From: Komagataeibacter xylinus
GTDB taxonomy: Bacteria > Pseudomonadota > Alphaproteobacteria > Acetobacterales > Acetobacteraceae
Direction: 5' to 3'
Assembly (NCBI RefSeq): GCF_004302915.1
Contig: NZ_QQBI01000001.1
Coordinates: 278,267 to 342,266, forward strand
DNA: 64,000 nt
Below the pieces are notes generated by a model. It was not told the DNA's origin. It did not search any database and saw nothing but the letters and a program-made list of their open reading frames with translations. Of the stretch, positions 32,554 through 41,381 are shown one piece after another. The translations under genes and the position numbers were made by a program. Each line of letters starts with the position of its first letter. The first letter of the stretch is position 1.

Positions 32554-33975
32554 TTAGCGCGGCCCCATGGCCAGCCCCGCACCACGCGGGTCGGTCACGG
32601 CGGTGCAGGTTGCGCCATCACCCGGCAGGCCGCGCGGGCAGGATATGGCGTTGACGCGCCCCTGCGCGGTTACAGGATGGGCATCGGGTGTCTGGCCTGC
32701 AAGGAGCTGGCGCATGGCAATGCCGGTGGCCGCCGCCGCGTCGTTCTGGCCCGACCCTGCCACCACCGCGCGGAAGGCGCGGCCCTGGCTGGCAATGGCG
32801 GCGGCATAAAGCGGCTGCGGCAGGCGCGCGGGCGAGGCGCCCAGCACGATGCCGGTATTGCCCGCCATGCGCCCGGTGCCAAACAGGTTGTCCATGCTCA
32901 GGCTGCACGCCACCGCCATGCCCCCGTGGTCAACCACGGTGAACGAGGTGGACGCCGGGAGCGAAGGCAGGCCCCCGCCGCCTGCCCCGCCTGCATTGAC
33001 AAAGGCCTGCGCGCGGGCGGTCAGGTCATCCCCCGTGCCACTGGCATGGCTGCCATTCTGTGCCCGCCAGCCCGCAACACTGGCCTGCGCGCGCGTTGCC
33101 GCATCGGACGAGGAGGCCGCGCGGAACGCCACCGCGGCCCCCAGCCCGCCATCGGCAGGCGGCGGCAGGAAGCTGACCTGCGTCTCGCCACTGCTGACGG
33201 AGAGCGGCAGCCGCTCAAACGGAATGGCCCCGCGCATGTCGGCCATGGTCAGGCCACCGCCCGCCTTCTGGCTGCCCGCCACGAAGGACTGGCCCAGCGC
33301 GCCATTATAAAGATCGCCCACGCCCATGCTGCGGATCTGGTCCAGCGCGCCTGAAAGATGGGTCTGCACCAGCGCATCGCCCTCGGCCAGCGCCTTGCCA
33401 TCCGAGCGGGCGAACACCGCGCGCACGCCCGCATCAGCCAGCAGCGGCACCTGGACTGCGGCAAGATCGGTGGCAAGCTGGCGGCTCACATTGATGCCAT
33501 TGGCCGCAAGTGCGATCGCGCCCGGCACCATCTCGGAAAACGCAGCCGAGCCATATTGCAGGTGCATCAGGTAAAGCCCGCGCGCCAGCATGGGCACCGC
33601 CGCCGGGCGATCGGCATGCGGCATGCCCGCCCCGTCGGTCACGCCCGCCACGGGCAGGAACATGAAGGCGCGGCCCCCGTTCTGGTCACCCGGACGGTAG
33701 GCAAGGCACGCCCCGCCCGCACCGAGCGAGGCACGCGAAGGCAGGGTCACGGCCAGGGCCAGCCCCATGGCCGTGGCCGCATCCGCCGCGTTGCCGCCGC
33801 GCTGCAGGATGTCACGCCCCACAAGGGTGGCCTGCGGCTCATCGGAGGAGACGGTGCCGATCAACTGCCCCGGCGAGGGACCAAACATGCTGGAAACGAT
33901 CCTGACCGGCGAATAGTTCTTGAACGCGCAGCCCGTAACCGAAAGGGCCAGAACCGCACACAGCGCCGTACGCAT
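32554..33975 (-). CDS. Gamma-glutamyltranspeptidase-like lipoprotein with altered catalytic site
   Basis: 473 aa from ATG 33975, where a lipoprotein signal MRTALCAVLALSVTGCAF starts (Cys16); an upstream in-frame ATG at 34050 would add 25 residues. GGT-family features are GRDILQRGGNAADAATAMGL and LGAGGACLAYRPGD, and a small-subunit-like STSFTVVD with FGTGRMAGNTGIVLG. Canonical GGTs have TTH[FY]S at the autoprocessing nucleophile; here the equivalent first residue is Ser342. The substrate Arg of the REMAP block is also not apparent. It may be inactive, slow or have another substrate. An amidase or transpeptidase role in the periplasm is only a guess. Confidence 0.72.
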   Translation of the reverse strand: MRTALCAVLALSVTGCAFKNYSPVRIVSSMFGPSPGQLIGTVSSDEPQATLVGRDILQRGGNAADAATAMGLALAVTLPSRASLGAGGACLAYRPGDQNGGRAFMFLPVAGVTDGAGMPHADRPAAVPMLARGLYLMHLQYGSAAFSEMVPGAIALAANGINVSRQLATDLAAVQVPLLADAGVRAVFARSDGKALAEGDALVQTHLSGALDQIRSMGVGDLYNGALGQSFVAGSQKAGGGLTMADMRGAIPFERLPLSVSSGETQVSFLPPPADGGLGAAVAFRAASSSDAATRAQASVAGWRAQNGSHASGTGDDLTARAQAFVNAGGAGGGGLPSLPASTSFTVVDHGGMAVACSLSMDNLFGTGRMAGNTGIVLGASPARLPQPLYAAAIASQGRAFRAVVAGSGQNDAAAATGIAMRQLLAGQTPDAHPVTAQGRVNAISCPRGLPGDGATCTAVTDPRGAGLAMGPR

Positions 33976-34223
33976 GGACCGACGGGCGACAGGGGTGATC
34001 GACGAATGCTCAGGCACGCAACGCTTCTCCAATGGGCAGGTCGGCTTCATTCCGTTGAACGGCTCGTAACGACCGCGCGATCGTAGGCCGGGCCTTCACG
34101 ACTTAGCGGCGTTCCGGGCCATCGGCAACAGGCATGGCGCCCGTGCGACCCCATGGCCCATTCCTTTCCGCTACCCGATCCTTTACACACCACCCTATCG
34201 CGACATGACAACGGAGCAAACCC

Positions 34224-35113: not shown

Positions 35114-36415
35114 TCAGGCCATGGCCACGGCAGTGGCATCGGCCAGGTCATTGACCCGCAGCAGGTGGCCAAGGGCCGCCACCATCTCGTCCATCATCGC
35201 ATCCGTATGGCGCGGCCCCGGCGTGAGGCGCAGGCGCTCGGTGCCCCGCGGCACGGTCGGGTAGTTGATGGGGGTGGTGTACATGCCGTAATCATTGAGC
35301 AGCCGGTCGCTCAGTTCGCGGCAGCGCCGGGCATCGCCCACGGGGATGGGCACGATATGGCTCGGCGTCATGTTGAATGGAATGCCCGCCGCCCTGAGCT
35401 TGGCGCGGAAGGTATCGACACGCTCGAAAATGCGCTCGCGCCGCCAGTTATCCTTGCGCACCTGCTTCACGCTGGCCAGCGCCGCCGCCACGACCGCAGG
35501 CGGCAGCGCGGTGGTGAAGATGAAGCCAGAGGCGCTCAGGCGCAGATATTCGACAATATTGCTCGAGGCGGTGATGTAGCCGCCATGCACGCCAAAGCCC
35601 TTGGCCAGCGTGCCCTCGATGATGTCAACCTGATCGGCCACGGCATCGCGCTGCGACACGCCGCCGCCCTGCGCGCCATACAGGCCCACGGCATGCACTT
35701 CATCAAGGTAGGTCATGGCGCCGTATTTACGCGCCAGCGCGCACGTGCCCGCGATGTCGGCTATGTCACCATCCATCGAGTACACGCTCTCGAAGGCGAT
35801 CAGCTTGGGCGCATCCTTCGGCGCCGCGGCCAGCTTGGCCTCAAGGTCGGCCAGGTCGTTATGCTCGAAAATGACCGTGCTCGACCCGCGCGCGCCCTTG
35901 ATGCCCGCAATCATGGAGGCATGGTTCAGCCGGTCGGAAAAGCAGATCCAGCCGGGCATGCTTGTCAGGATGGTCTGGAGCGATGCCTGGTTCGAGACAT
36001 AGCCCGAGCCGAACAGCAGCCCTGCTTCCTTGCCATGCAGGTCGGCCAGCTCCGCCTCCAGCGCGGTGTGCACCGGGCTCGTGCCCGCGATGTTGCGCGT
36101 ACCGCCCGCGCCCGCGCCATGCTCATGAATGGCACGGATCGCGGCCTCGACCACGACGGGCTCGACCCCCATGCCCAGATAATCATTGGAGGACCAGACC
36201 ACGACCTCCCGGTCTTCGGGGCAGGCGGGGGTGGACGGCGTGGGCGCGGTCTCGGGCTGCTCGTATAACGGGTAACGGTCGGCCAGCCGTGACAGGGGCG
36301 TAAACTGCCGGTATCGCCCCTGGGCGCGGATATCGGCCAGCGCCGTCTGGCAGAACCGGAAAAACGGATGCCCATCCACATGATTACTGGACACTGCTGG
36401 TTTTCTCCATGGCAT
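35114..36415 (-). CDS. hemA: 5-aminolevulinate synthase (C4 pathway)
   Basis: PLP enzyme joining glycine and succinyl-CoA to 5-aminolevulinate, the first step of haem synthesis in alphaproteobacteria. It is 433 aa. Blocks: [54 protein letters not shown], and the PLP lysine in [14 protein letters not shown]. The C-terminus has [21 protein letters not shown] 36415 is the furthest upstream; a GTG at 36379 is an alternative nearer to the family's usual start. Convergent with the DsbA-type gene. Confidence 0.96.
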
Positions 36416-37180: not shown

Positions 37181-39103
37181 ATGCCCGAAGACCAGGAAGC
37201 CCTCGCACTCTCGCCTGCCCCGCCACCAGCAGCCCCTGCCATGCCCGAGCGGCTGGCGACGGCGATCCGCCATGCCATCGGCGTGCATGAAACCGACCGG
37301 CGGCATGCCCCGCACGCCCGGGTCATGGCCGGGCTGTGCGCGGTGCTGTGGAGTCGCTTCCTGCGCTTCGACCCGGCCAGCCCCGACTGGCCGGATCGTG
37401 ACCGCCTGGTCATCTCCTCGCCCCGCTACCGGGTGCTGCCGCGCATCATGGCCGAACTGTCGGGGCAGGTCTCGCGCCCCGGCCTGCCCGCCGCGACCGA
37501 CCGGCAGGCCTGCGGCCCCAACGGGCAGGGACTGGGGGCCGCGATCGGCATGGCGCTGGCCGAGCAGAAGCTGGCCGCCCGCTTTGGCCGCTCGGTGGTC
37601 AACCACCGCATATGGGCGCTGGGGTGCTGGAGCGAGCTTTCCACCGGCGTGGCGCTGGAAAGCGCCGCCCTGGCCGGCCAGCTCGGCCTTGACCGCGTGA
37701 CCCTGGTGGTGGGCCTGTGGAGCACCGAGCGCGAGGAGGTGGACACCATCCTGCCGCGCTACAGCGCATCGGGCTGGTCGGTGCGCAAGGTCGATGCAGG
37801 CAATACCGAACAGATCGCAAGCGTCATCGCCTCCGCCCAGCGCACGCATAAGCCCTGCCTGATTGCATGCATCGCCCCGCCCGAAACCGACCCGCCACCG
37901 CCATTTGCCGATGATCCGGGCCTGTGGGCCGGGGCCGCGCGCCGGGGGGCGAGCGCACGGCGCTCATGGCTGCGCCGCCTGTTCAAGGACCGGCAGAAAG
38001 CCGAGTTCGAACGCATGGCGCGCAACCAGCGCCCCGCCTTCTGGCAGCCTGACTGGCAGCGTTCATGGCGCGAGCACAGCGCGCTGCTGGCCCGCGCCTC
38101 GCCCGCCTTCTCGGCGCAGCGCGGGCTCGAAACCCTGCATGAACTGCTGCCCGAACTGACCTGCCTGCGCTCGCGCCAGGGCATGATGCCCGATTTCTCC
38201 GCCCTGCGGCGCAGCAGTGGCGAGCCCGATCTTTCCTGCGGCACGCAGGTGCATGGCATGGCCGCTCTGCTCAACGGCATTGCGCTGCATGGCGGCCTGC
38301 TGGCCTTTGGCGCCACCACCATCATCGCGGTGGACCGCATGCGCCCCGCCCTGCGCTACGCCGCCATGACCGGCCAGCAGGTGATCTACCTGCTCAGCGA
38401 TGACGACCTGCCGCGCGGCACGAACGCGGGCGGCTGGCGGCCCGTCGAGCAGCTGGCCAGCCTGCGCGCCATGCCCAACATGGCGCTGTTCCGCCCCGCC
38501 GACCACCGCGAGACCATGGAATGCATGGAACTGGCGCTGCGGCGCACGACCGGGCCGAGCCTGCTGGTGCTGGAATCCGCCCCCTCGATTGCCGCCACCG
38601 TGCCCGAGCGCGAACAGCACGGCCTGACTAACCTGTGCGCGCGCGGCGGCTACGTGCTGGCCGAGGCCGAAGGCCCGCGGCAGGTCACGCTGGTGGCCAC
38701 GGGGCATGAGGCCATCGTGGCGCTGGGCGCGCGCGCGCTGCTGCGCGCGGCGGGCATCGGGGCGGCGGTTGTATCACTTCCGTGCTGGGAACTGTTCGCC
38801 GCCCAAAAAATGACGTATCGTGCTGCCGTGCTGGGAACAGCGCCCCGGATCGGAATCGAGGCCGCATCGGGTTTTGGATGGGATCGCTGGCTTGGGCCGG
38901 ACGGGCTGTTCGTGGGGATTGACGGGTTCGGGGCCACCCCCATGCCCGATGCGCCCGACAGTCTGGCCGACATCACGCCGGAGCGGATCTGCCGCGACGC
39001 CATGCGGCTGCTCCACGCCCATGCCGGAACCGCGATGGAAACCGTGGGAGGAAACGGCGCGCCTCCACCACCCGGGCTGGCATCGCTTGATGCCAGCATG
39101 TGA
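37181..39103 (+). CDS. Transketolase homologue with lost ThDP and catalytic residues (probable pseudoenzyme)
   Basis: 640 aa, roughly transketolase length, with all three domains recognisable. By alignment from memory to E. coli TktA: the GDG metal/ThDP motif is GCW (148-150); the Asn of DDNG is Trp180; His66 (SNGHGS) is Arg; the TPGHPE segment is missing; Glu411 (GVREFGM) is Val357 in GTQVHGM; His473 (THDS) is Ser406; Arg520 is Glu. Scaffold blocks such as [29 protein letters not shown] and [16 protein letters not shown] are kept. ThDP-dependent transfer therefore looks impossible, although the frame is open and composition normal. It lies 32 bp before gap and is probably cotranscribed with gap-pgk. 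A structural or regulatory role is inference. Confidence 0.85.
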
Positions 39104-39135: not shown

Positions 39136-40158
39136 ATGGCTGTTAAAGTCGCAATAAACGGTTTTGGCCGCATTGGTCGCCTCGTGCTGCGCGGCATCAT
39201 TGAAAGCGGGCGCACCGACGTGGTGCCGGTCGCGATCAATGACCTTGGCAGCGTGGCCGACAACGCGCACCTGCTGTCCTATGACAGCGTGCACGGGCGC
39301 TTCCCCGCCGATGTGAAGGTCGAGGGCAACCAGATCATCATCACGGCCAATGGCCGCACCTATGCCCCCATCACCGTCTCGGCCGAGGCCGACCCCACCA
39401 GGGTGCCCTTCAAGGGCGTGGACGTGGCGCTGGAATGCACCGGCCGCTTTACCGACAAGGAAAAGGCCGCCCAGCTCATTACGGCAGGTGCGCGCAAGGT
39501 GATCGTGTCCGCCCCGGCATCAGGCGTGGACGCCACCATCGTGTACGGCGTGAACCAGGACGTGCTGACGCCTGACATGACCGTCATCTCGAACGCGTCA
39601 TGCACCACCAACTGCCTCGCCCCGGTGGCCAAGGTGCTGGATGACACGTTCGGCATCGAATGTGGCTACATGGTCACCATTCATTCCTATACCGGCGACC
39701 AGCGCACGGTGGACACGCTGCACAAGGACCTGCGCCGCGCACGTGGCGCCGCGCTGAACATGATCCCGACCTCGACCGGGGCCGCGCGCGCCGTGGGGCT
39801 GGTGCTGCCGCACCTCAAGGGCAGGCTCGATGGCACCGCCATCCGCGTGCCGACCCCCAACGTGTCGCTCGTCTCGCTCGACTTCGTGCCCAAAAAGGCC
39901 CCGGCCTCCGTCGAGGAAGTGAATGCAGCGCTGCTGAAAGCCTCCGAGTCGGGCCCGCTCAAGGGCATCCTTGCCTACAACACCGCGCCGCTGGTCAGCA
40001 CCGACTTCAACCACTCGCCCGCCTCCTCCACCTTCGATGCCACCCAGACGGCGGTGATCGATGGCGGCAAGCTGGTGCGCATCTGCAGCTGGTACGACAA
40101 TGAGTGGGGCTTCTCCAACCGCATGGCCGACACGGCTGCCGTATTCGGGGCACTGTAA
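39136..40158 (+). CDS. gap: Type I glyceraldehyde-3-phosphate dehydrogenase
   Basis: NAD+-dependent (possibly also NADP+) oxidation of glyceraldehyde 3-phosphate to 1,3-bisphosphoglycerate. It is 340 aa. Rossmann start [16 protein letters not shown]; catalytic Cys in [45 protein letters not shown] at the end. ATG 39136 follows GGAG. It lies between the transketolase-like gene and pgk; the stop overlaps the pgk ATG by one base. Confidence 0.97.
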
Positions 40159-41381
40159 TGGGCGCGGCAAGCTTCAAGACGCTGGATGACCTTGATGCCA
40201 CGGGCAAGAAGGTTCTCCTGCGCGCTGATCTGAACGTGCCGGTGCGCAACGCCCAGATCACGGACGCCACGCGCATCCTGCGCCTGCTGCCCACCATTCA
40301 GGAACTGGCCCAGAAGGGGGCGAAGGTGATTGTTGTCAGTCACTTCGACCGCCCCAAGGGCAAACCGGTGCCTGAAATGTCGCTTGGCCCCATTGCCGAT
40401 GCGCTGGGCGATGCGCTGGGCCGGCCGGTCACCTTTGTCGATGACTGCACCGGCCCCAAGGTGCAGCAGGCCGTGGACGCCATGCAGGATGGCGACGTGG
40501 TGGTGCTGGAAAACACCCGCTTCTACCCCGGCGAGGAACAGAACGACCCGGCGCTGGCCAAGGAATTCGCAGCATTGGCCGACTATTACGTCAATGATGC
40601 GTTCTCCGCCGCCCACCGCGCCCATGCCTCGACCGAGGGCGTGGCCCGGCTGCTGCCCTCCTTTGCAGGCCGCCTCATGGAGACGGAACTCAACGCGCTC
40701 AACATAGCGCTTGAAAACCCCGCCCGCCCGGTGGGCGCCATCGTGGGCGGGGCCAAGATCTCGACCAAGCTCGACCTGATCGGCAACCTGCTTGAAAAGG
40801 TGGACATGCTGATCATTGGCGGCGCCATGGCCAACACCTTCCTTGCAGCACAGGGCGTGGATGTGGGCCGCTCGCTGCAGGAGGCCGAGATGCACGACAC
40901 CGCGCGTACCATCATGGCCAAGGCGAAGGAAAAGAACTGCGAGATCATCCTGCCGGTTGATGTCGTGACCGCGACCGACTTCAGGGCGGGCGTGCCCACG
41001 CGCACGGTGCCGGTCAATGCCATTCCGGCTGATGCCATGGCGCTCGACGTGGGGCCGGAAACGGTCAGGCTGATCAATGAAAAGCTCACCACGCTGAAAA
41101 CGCTGGTCTGGAACGGCCCGCTTGGCGCGTTCGAGGTCTTGCCGTTCGATACGGCTACCAATGAAGTCGCGCGCGAGGTGGGCCGCCTGACCGATGCGGG
41201 CGCGCTCAAGAGCATTGCAGGTGGTGGCGATACGGTCTCCGCCCTGCGCCATGCGGGGGTGGAGAAGCATATCTCCTACATCTCGAGTGCGGGGGGCGCC
41301 TTCCTTGAATGGCTGGAAGGCAAGACGCTGCCCGGCATCATGGCGCTTGAGGCCGTGTTTGAACGGGCCATGCCCATCTGA
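40158..41381 (+). CDS. pgk: Phosphoglycerate kinase
   Basis: Transfers phosphate from 1,3-bisphosphoglycerate to ADP. It is 407 aa. N-terminal [20 protein letters not shown], substrate [18 protein letters not shown], and C-terminal nucleotide site with [17 protein letters not shown] and [14 protein letters not shown] 40158 overlaps the gap stop (TAATG). A rho-independent terminator follows at 41405. Standard partner of gap. Confidence 0.97.

Follow-up and report, generated by a model that had tools for sequence, protein, structure and literature searches.

A degenerate transketolase homologue in front of gap-pgk in Komagataeibacter xylinus looks like an old retained pseudoenzyme

Reading frame, family match and predicted fold

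The question raised by this locus is why a bacterium should keep, directly in front of gap and pgk, a full-length transketolase (TK) homologue whose active site appears to be lost. The window, i.e., the whole stretch of DNA analyzed, comprises 64,000 nucleotides of the K. xylinus contig NZ_QQBI01000001.1. The protein, termed pseudo-TK in the following, and its first domain are encoded at:

37181..39103, + strand: degenerate transketolase (pseudo-TK), 640 amino acids, recognized by its open frame, Pfam, NCBIfam, predicted structure and alignment
37286..37870, + strand: former ThDP pyrophosphate-binding (N) domain, amino acids 36–230, Pfam PF00456

The initial annotation described an intact frame of 640 codons that retains the transketolase scaffold, and both statements hold. 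The frame contains no internal stop, and the N, Pyr, and C domains of the fold are all present according to Pfam (Transketolase_N, 3.3e-25; Transket_pyr, 7.3e-16; Transketolase_C_1, 5e-28) and the predicted structure. The AlphaFold model, calculated with 36 aligned sequences, has a mean pLDDT of 80.4 and a pTM of 0.83. When it was compared to the PDB by Foldseek, the best 50 of 473 matches (E ≤ 0.001) were all transketolases, and E. coli TK matched the model with a TM score of 0.78–0.80. Coding on the opposite strand was rejected, as the register checked there contains three internal stops; the long antisense ORFs were regarded as a common feature of DNA rich in G+C.

Despite this fold, the protein scores only 280.9 bits against the NCBIfam transketolase equivalog model TIGR00232, whose cut-off is 682.25. 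Other degenerate homologues also fall below it (L103, 351.4; L093, 322.9; L088, 288.9), as does an intermediate form (L049, 658.9), whereas the canonical controls L113 (785.7) and L001 (835.5) exceed it.

Loss of the active site

Residues were compared with TktA of E. coli MG1655 at 21 positions assigned to the active site. The comparison included 28 degenerate rows (27 of the 29 degenerate loci introduced below plus the window protein) and 51 canonical rows; L087, which is cut by a contig end, and the MAG-derived L127 were left out. According to this alignment, the following codons of the window gene mark the altered site:

37625..37633, + strand: C149-W150-S151, replacing the (G/S)DG metal/ThDP motif
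37643..37645, + strand: T155, replacing the invariant E160 (Thr in 27 of 28 degenerate rows)
38249..38251, + strand: V357, replacing the catalytic Glu411
38336..38338, + strand: R386, replacing the invariant Tyr440 (Arg in all 28 degenerate rows)

Across the 28 degenerate rows, the Glu411 position is occupied by Val (19), Glu (5), Asp (3), or Ala (1). Further replacements in the window protein are H66 by R82, D155 by W150, G156 by S151, H461 by D407, D469 by N415, and H473 by W419; R520 corresponds to Ser, Ala, or a gap, varying with the alignment, and gaps lie opposite N185, I187, H261, and H100, the last of which belongs to the TPGHPE segment. The metal/ThDP motif (G/S)DG...N185 is represented by CWS and a gap, and the catalytic and substrate-binding set H66, H261, R358, S385, H461, H473, and R520 is not conserved. 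Identity to TktA is confined to two of the 21 positions, G114 and H26 (opposite window residue H42), and the latter is His in just 7 of the 28 degenerate rows. The GPxGQG motif is retained. The proposed loss of the ThDP site and of catalytic residues, including V357 at E411, R82 at H66, and the missing TPGHPE segment, is thus borne out, and neither an intact GDG-N30-N motif nor a catalytic Glu was found elsewhere in the protein in the alignments. Some initial assignments need correction, since GDG aligns with CWS and not with GCW, and the readings of His473 as Ser and of Arg520 as Glu were alignment slips.

The losses are concentrated in the active site. TktA shares 219 positions that are invariant (≥95%) in the 51 canonical rows. 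Twenty-one of them belong to the active site, and 20 of these are kept in less than half of the degenerate rows (sole exception, G114). Outside the active site, 84 of 198 such positions are lost and 114 retained (Fisher's test against the active-site losses, 2e-6).

Genomic location

Pseudo-TK is flanked by three genes that recur at this locus:

35114..36415, - strand: divergent hemA-like gene (Pfam Aminotran_1_2), a conserved neighbor in acetic acid bacteria, presumably encoding 5-aminolevulinate synthase
39136..40158, + strand: gap (GAPDH), with its probable ATG 32 bases past the pseudo-TK stop
40104..41381, + strand: pgk, open frame as listed, with an inferred probable start at the ATG at 40158

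Of 20 neighborhoods inspected (host and 19 other genomes), 19 have gap directly 3' of the degenerate tkt and 18 contain pgk. A broad scan of genome contigs, from which the best 80 of at least 555 passing candidates were kept, yielded 29 degenerate and 51 canonical loci; gap and pgk were found 3' of the gene in all 29 degenerate loci, and 27 of these loci have the divergent hemA-like gene at their opposite flank. The claim that relatives have an active tkt before gap-pgk was likewise substantiated, as a canonical tkt occupies this place in Roseomonadaceae. An exception to the linkage is genome G158, in which an intact pseudo-TK adjoins an aconitase-like gene, and gap is on another contig. This copy (L074, 6071-7951, - strand) has a branch among the longest (1.29), yet is intact, which makes it a natural experiment on the importance of linkage to gap. 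Scans for promoters (3 weak sites versus 0.8 expected) and terminators (3 sites versus 2.6 expected) were of no use.

Elsewhere in the window, a gamma-glutamyltranspeptidase-like gene with a lipoprotein-like start was observed (32554-34050, - strand; Pfam 136 bits). It reads STSFTVVD at the segment where TTHFSVVD, with the nucleophile Thr, would be expected, and may be catalytically altered too.

Distribution and history

Pseudo-TK was found in all 19 genomes of the genus searched (host and 18 others), in each case without internal stops, although the G001 copy lies in two pieces on two contigs. The occurrence of the degenerate form in all of these genomes rules out chance or sequencing errors as its source. 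The closest relative among the matches listed is L077 of K. xylinus (96%). The 29 degenerate loci among the best 80 belong to Komagataeibacter (11), Acetobacter (9), Gluconacetobacter (6), Novacetimonas (2), and one MAG, and the 51 canonical loci to Roseomonas, Belnapia, Siccirubricoccus, MAGs, and others. Acetobacter, Gluconacetobacter, and Novacetimonas thus have intact orthologues as well.

Between these two groups the active-site residues form a series. Canonical rows keep mostly 20–21 of the 21 residues (lower values: L108, 17; L116, 18; the partial L030, 19), among further genomes G021, G029, and G268 have 21, and the near-canonical copy of G191 has 17. The intermediates L049 and L050 keep 13 and 14, and L025 and L052 keep eight; the remaining early degenerate rows retain 0–4. 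Copies of Komagataeibacter, Novacetimonas, Gluconacetobacter, and Acetobacter keep 1–6, the maximum of six being reached in the A. pasteurianus group, which retains equivalents of D155, G156, and E411 among them. Two further degenerate copies, in G127 and G085, keep three and none, respectively. The gap-linked tkt of G191 (L276, 3725-5695, + strand), a genome with further canonical tkts, shares the same four changes as L108 and perhaps represents an early stage.

No match to P0001 at 1e-60 was obtained in 55 of 249 genomes of the family. Examination of 20 of these 55 revealed gap without a tkt in the 1.5 kb upstream in 15 genomes and a degenerate copy in one (G085); four could not be judged, because G020 has only a distant gap, G091 offers 0.66 kb of upstream sequence, no gap was detected in G122, and G132 is fragmented. 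Since 15 of the 20 lack a tkt upstream of gap, the gene, as judged from these contigs, has been lost in many relatives and its function would be dispensable in those lineages. The G085 copy (L280, 5634-7073, - strand; 534-aa frame) is the most degenerate gap-linked copy seen, and its genome also has two canonical tkts. In G132, a short stretch resembling the TK C-terminus lies 5' of a gap copy in a fragmented assembly (L207, 1253-1378) and is possibly a remnant. As a candidate correlate of pseudo-TK retention, the succinate dehydrogenase gene sdhA occurs in 29 of 30 carriers and in 10 of 17 presumed non-carriers, a comparison that is confounded by descent and in which absence of pseudo-TK is unproven for G091 (short upstream region) and G122 (no gap found).

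In a quick tree of 54 of the 134 extracted proteins (the partial rows L023, L027, and L030 were among those omitted), 33 of 34 degenerate rows formed one clade (SH-aLRT 97) with L052 apart, and within this clade Acetobacter, Gluconacetobacter, Novacetimonas, and Komagataeibacter grouped in turn. A more careful 30-row tree is consistent with this picture as far as the acetic acid bacteria are concerned. It places the canonical L028 among early intermediates; a single clade of all 16 degenerate rows was neither rejected (AU p = 0.112) nor shown. Pseudo-TK descends from an ancestral gap-linked transketolase of the Acetobacteraceae, and the grouping by genus suggests that it is probably older than the split of Acetobacter, Gluconacetobacter, Novacetimonas, and Komagataeibacter, with losses elsewhere.

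Companion transketolases

The initial annotation suggested looking for a canonical tkt elsewhere in the genome, and the host has two such genes. Both L001 and L002 retain all 21 active-site residues, and in both cases a transaldolase/PGI fusion and a 6PGD gene come next. These two clusters lie at L269 and L270 on host contigs C15 and C12, one of them continuing with zwf. Pseudo-TK is 35–37% identical to the host's active TKs over the matched part. A survey that counted any PF00456 match above 400 bits as a canonical companion, and that drew on 31 of the best 80 loci, the other genomes, and the host, found a further canonical tkt in all 33 distinct carrier genomes (17 of 17, 16 of 16, and the host; G258 and G303 are identical by coordinates and were counted once). 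The companions of the other carriers score 416 to 530 bits. Conversely, where the ancestral copy is canonical or near-canonical, 21 of 23 genomes have just one match above approximately 400 bits (14 of 14 in the best-80 set and 8 of 10 among the other genomes, where G034 equals G310 and was likewise counted once); G035 and G191 have more than one. The ancestral copy is linked to gap in all 23 except G022, where the contig ends nearby. In this survey, full degeneration was thus confined to genomes that have another tkt. In G313, G315, and G316, extra matches of the TK_N type were seen (130–139 bits, frames of 285–378 amino acids), perhaps subunits of split-type TKs.

Selection and newly conserved residues

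Selection was assessed over the homologous part of the protein by a pairwise codon model (own GY94-type script). Median omega of pseudo-TK was 0.095 in Komagataeibacter (36 pairs, 9 genomes), 0.076 in Gluconacetobacter (15 pairs, 6 genomes), and 0.076 in Acetobacter (21 pairs, 7 genomes; distances high), and the smallest likelihood-ratio statistic against omega = 1 was 54.9. The active tkt gave 0.054, 0.059, and 0.059 in the same genera (6, 6, and 15 pairs), and gap, pgk, and hemA were lower still in Komagataeibacter and Gluconacetobacter (0.025–0.057); the PGK value for Acetobacter was discarded as an artefact of gapped alignment pieces. Constraint extends over all three pseudo-TK domains and the linker (median omega 0.048–0.129). 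Relaxed selection or frameshifts in close relatives, which would have spoken against the initial reading, were not seen: selection is purifying in all three genera, and the 19 genus genomes are free of internal frameshifts and stops. A decaying pseudogene was rejected on these grounds, omega being far from 1. Intact but fast-evolving copies exist (L048, L053, L056, and L121).

Besides old residues lost, new ones have become conserved. Twenty-three positions are nearly fixed (≥95%) in the 28 degenerate rows and different in the canonical rows, among them N141, T155, R265, W292, C328-L329, C353, and R386, and several of these residues occupy former active-site positions (e.g., R386 at Y440 and T155 at E160). 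The combined loss of old and gain of new constraint argues, at the level of the alignment, for a changed function rather than decay.

Possible function

An intact frame under purifying selection that lacks catalytic residues, together with canonical tkts elsewhere and an active tkt in front of gap-pgk in relatives, supports the reading as a pseudoenzyme, which looks old and retained rather than like a decaying pseudogene. We lean, somewhat beyond even chances, towards a non-catalytic protein of TK fold that is kept for a contact function. The components of this explanation differ in strength. From its residues, pseudo-TK almost certainly lacks TK catalysis, and its conservation very probably reflects a selected function of the protein; that it acts by protein contact is our guarded preference, with GAPDH/PGK as a tentative partner and active TK as a less likely one. 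The order of events would be that a second tkt took over and released the gap-linked copy from catalysis, after which the protein was kept for its contacts. Made together with GAPDH and PGK, it would engage in protein–protein contact at the glyceraldehyde-3-phosphate branch point and either hold or tune GAPDH/PGK, which is slightly preferred because the operon position is conserved, or pair with active TK as human TKTL1 does. More speculatively, pseudo-TK might be an ancient bacterial pseudoenzyme, as old as the root of the acetic acid bacteria or older, that regulates or scaffolds the glyceraldehyde-3-phosphate node without catalysis. Its contact function would then predate the loss of catalysis and keep the gene before gap-pgk, making it an independently evolved counterpart of TKTL1 that likewise lost part of the cofactor-anchoring N domain.

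Pairing with active TK would make pseudo-TK a TKTL1-like regulator, whose half-dead heterodimers have altered activity. The active sites of TKs form between the two subunits of the dimer, which counts for this possibility, as do the human precedent and the canonical tkt found in all 33 carriers examined, which fits a heterodimer. The low identity to the host TKs makes it less certain, however; moreover, the host tkts sit with tal/pgi and gnd, away from pseudo-TK, and the spread of companion scores indicates that these TKs may not be one type, so that we consider this regulator rather unlikely. A new ligand-binding or enzymatic activity, with the former ThDP pocket remodelled around the residues that became fixed in degenerate sequences, would agree with the near-fixed replacements at or, in sequence, near active-site positions (R386/Y440, T155/E160, C353, and C328-L329/G377-G378). 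It appears improbable, since substrate-binding positions are lost, the pocket positions of D155, D381, S385, and H461 vary between genera, and many of the 23 gained positions lie elsewhere in sequence.

Loss in many relatives, the fast-evolving copies, and the 534-aa G085 copy without any active-site residue could point to slow decay, and the codirectional arrangement 32 bases from gap to a frame whose sole role is to promote gap expression through its own translation. Both are very improbable in view of omega values of about 0.08–0.10 in three genera with protein-level constraint across all domains, frames that are open in all 19 genus genomes (one as two contig pieces), and the intact G158 copy that is uncoupled from gap. 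Least credible is that the protein is still an active TK, or another ThDP enzyme, whose catalytic residues have shifted position. The GPxGQG motif and the overall predicted fold are kept, and the A. pasteurianus group retains equivalents of D155, G156, and E411 among its six residues, but the window protein has D155, N185, E411, H66, H261, H461, H473, and R520 replaced or gapped, for which reason an active TK was dismissed, and the best other ThDP family, DXS (TIGR00204), gave E = 0.29.

Among bacteria of use for vinegar and cellulose, a natural series leads from enzyme (mostly 20–21 of 21 residues) over intermediates (13–14, then 8) to pseudoenzyme (1–6 in the acetic acid bacterial genera), which permits the roles of a metabolic enzyme besides catalysis to be addressed directly. 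Metabolic maps of acetic acid bacteria are also affected. In the A. pasteurianus 386B genome paper (PMC3751514), APA386B_1521 is counted as a transketolase beside APA386B_1152, and its number directly follows those of pgk (1519) and gap (1520). From these locus numbers and the A. pasteurianus locus L103, APA386B_1521 apparently is pseudo-TK, which would then have been counted as transketolase in at least one published genome.

Comparison with known systems

No paper on a bacterial pseudo-transketolase was found by title or abstract beginning, in a search covering few subscription papers and bioRxiv preprints; the 20 hits listed of 151 in one part of it concerned human TKTL1, tkt1 of E. coli, or unrelated subjects, and data on partners, expression, or phenotype did not turn up either. 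Among known systems, the closest is the gap-linked TktA-type TK (EC 2.2.1.1) of Roseomonadaceae, which has the same predicted fold, length, domain order, and place before gap(-pgk) and is about 41–45% identical to pseudo-TK. Compared to it, most acetic acid bacterial forms lost 20 of 21 active-site residues; in pseudo-TK the TPGHPE and ThDP loops are deleted and the score misses the family cut-off by about 400 bits. The TK of C. hydrogenoformans (6YAJ/6YAK) has homologous domains and gave weak matches (3e-8 and 3.5e-5), but is a split-chain enzyme, whereas pseudo-TK is one full-length chain.

Human TKTL1 resembles pseudo-TK in being derived from transketolase, in lacking part of the N-domain active site (in pseudo-TK the TPGHPE region is absent), and in occurring alongside an active TK, and a regulatory role has been reported for it. 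Recombinant TKTL1 reportedly has virtually no TK activity but binds TKT with a KD of 0.146 umol/L and alters its activity (PMC6555833), a model of the deletion shows no specific cofactor binding (PMC3485151), and a further study agrees on the missing activity and TKT binding (PMC12525540); the title of PMC6334435 claims the contrary. TKTL1 is, however, a close paralogue of TKT, whereas pseudo-TK is far more diverged and has lost nearly all catalytic residues. Unlike TKTL1, which is reported to bind TKT, pseudo-TK is a putative partner of the active TK at most, and its gene sits before gap-pgk.
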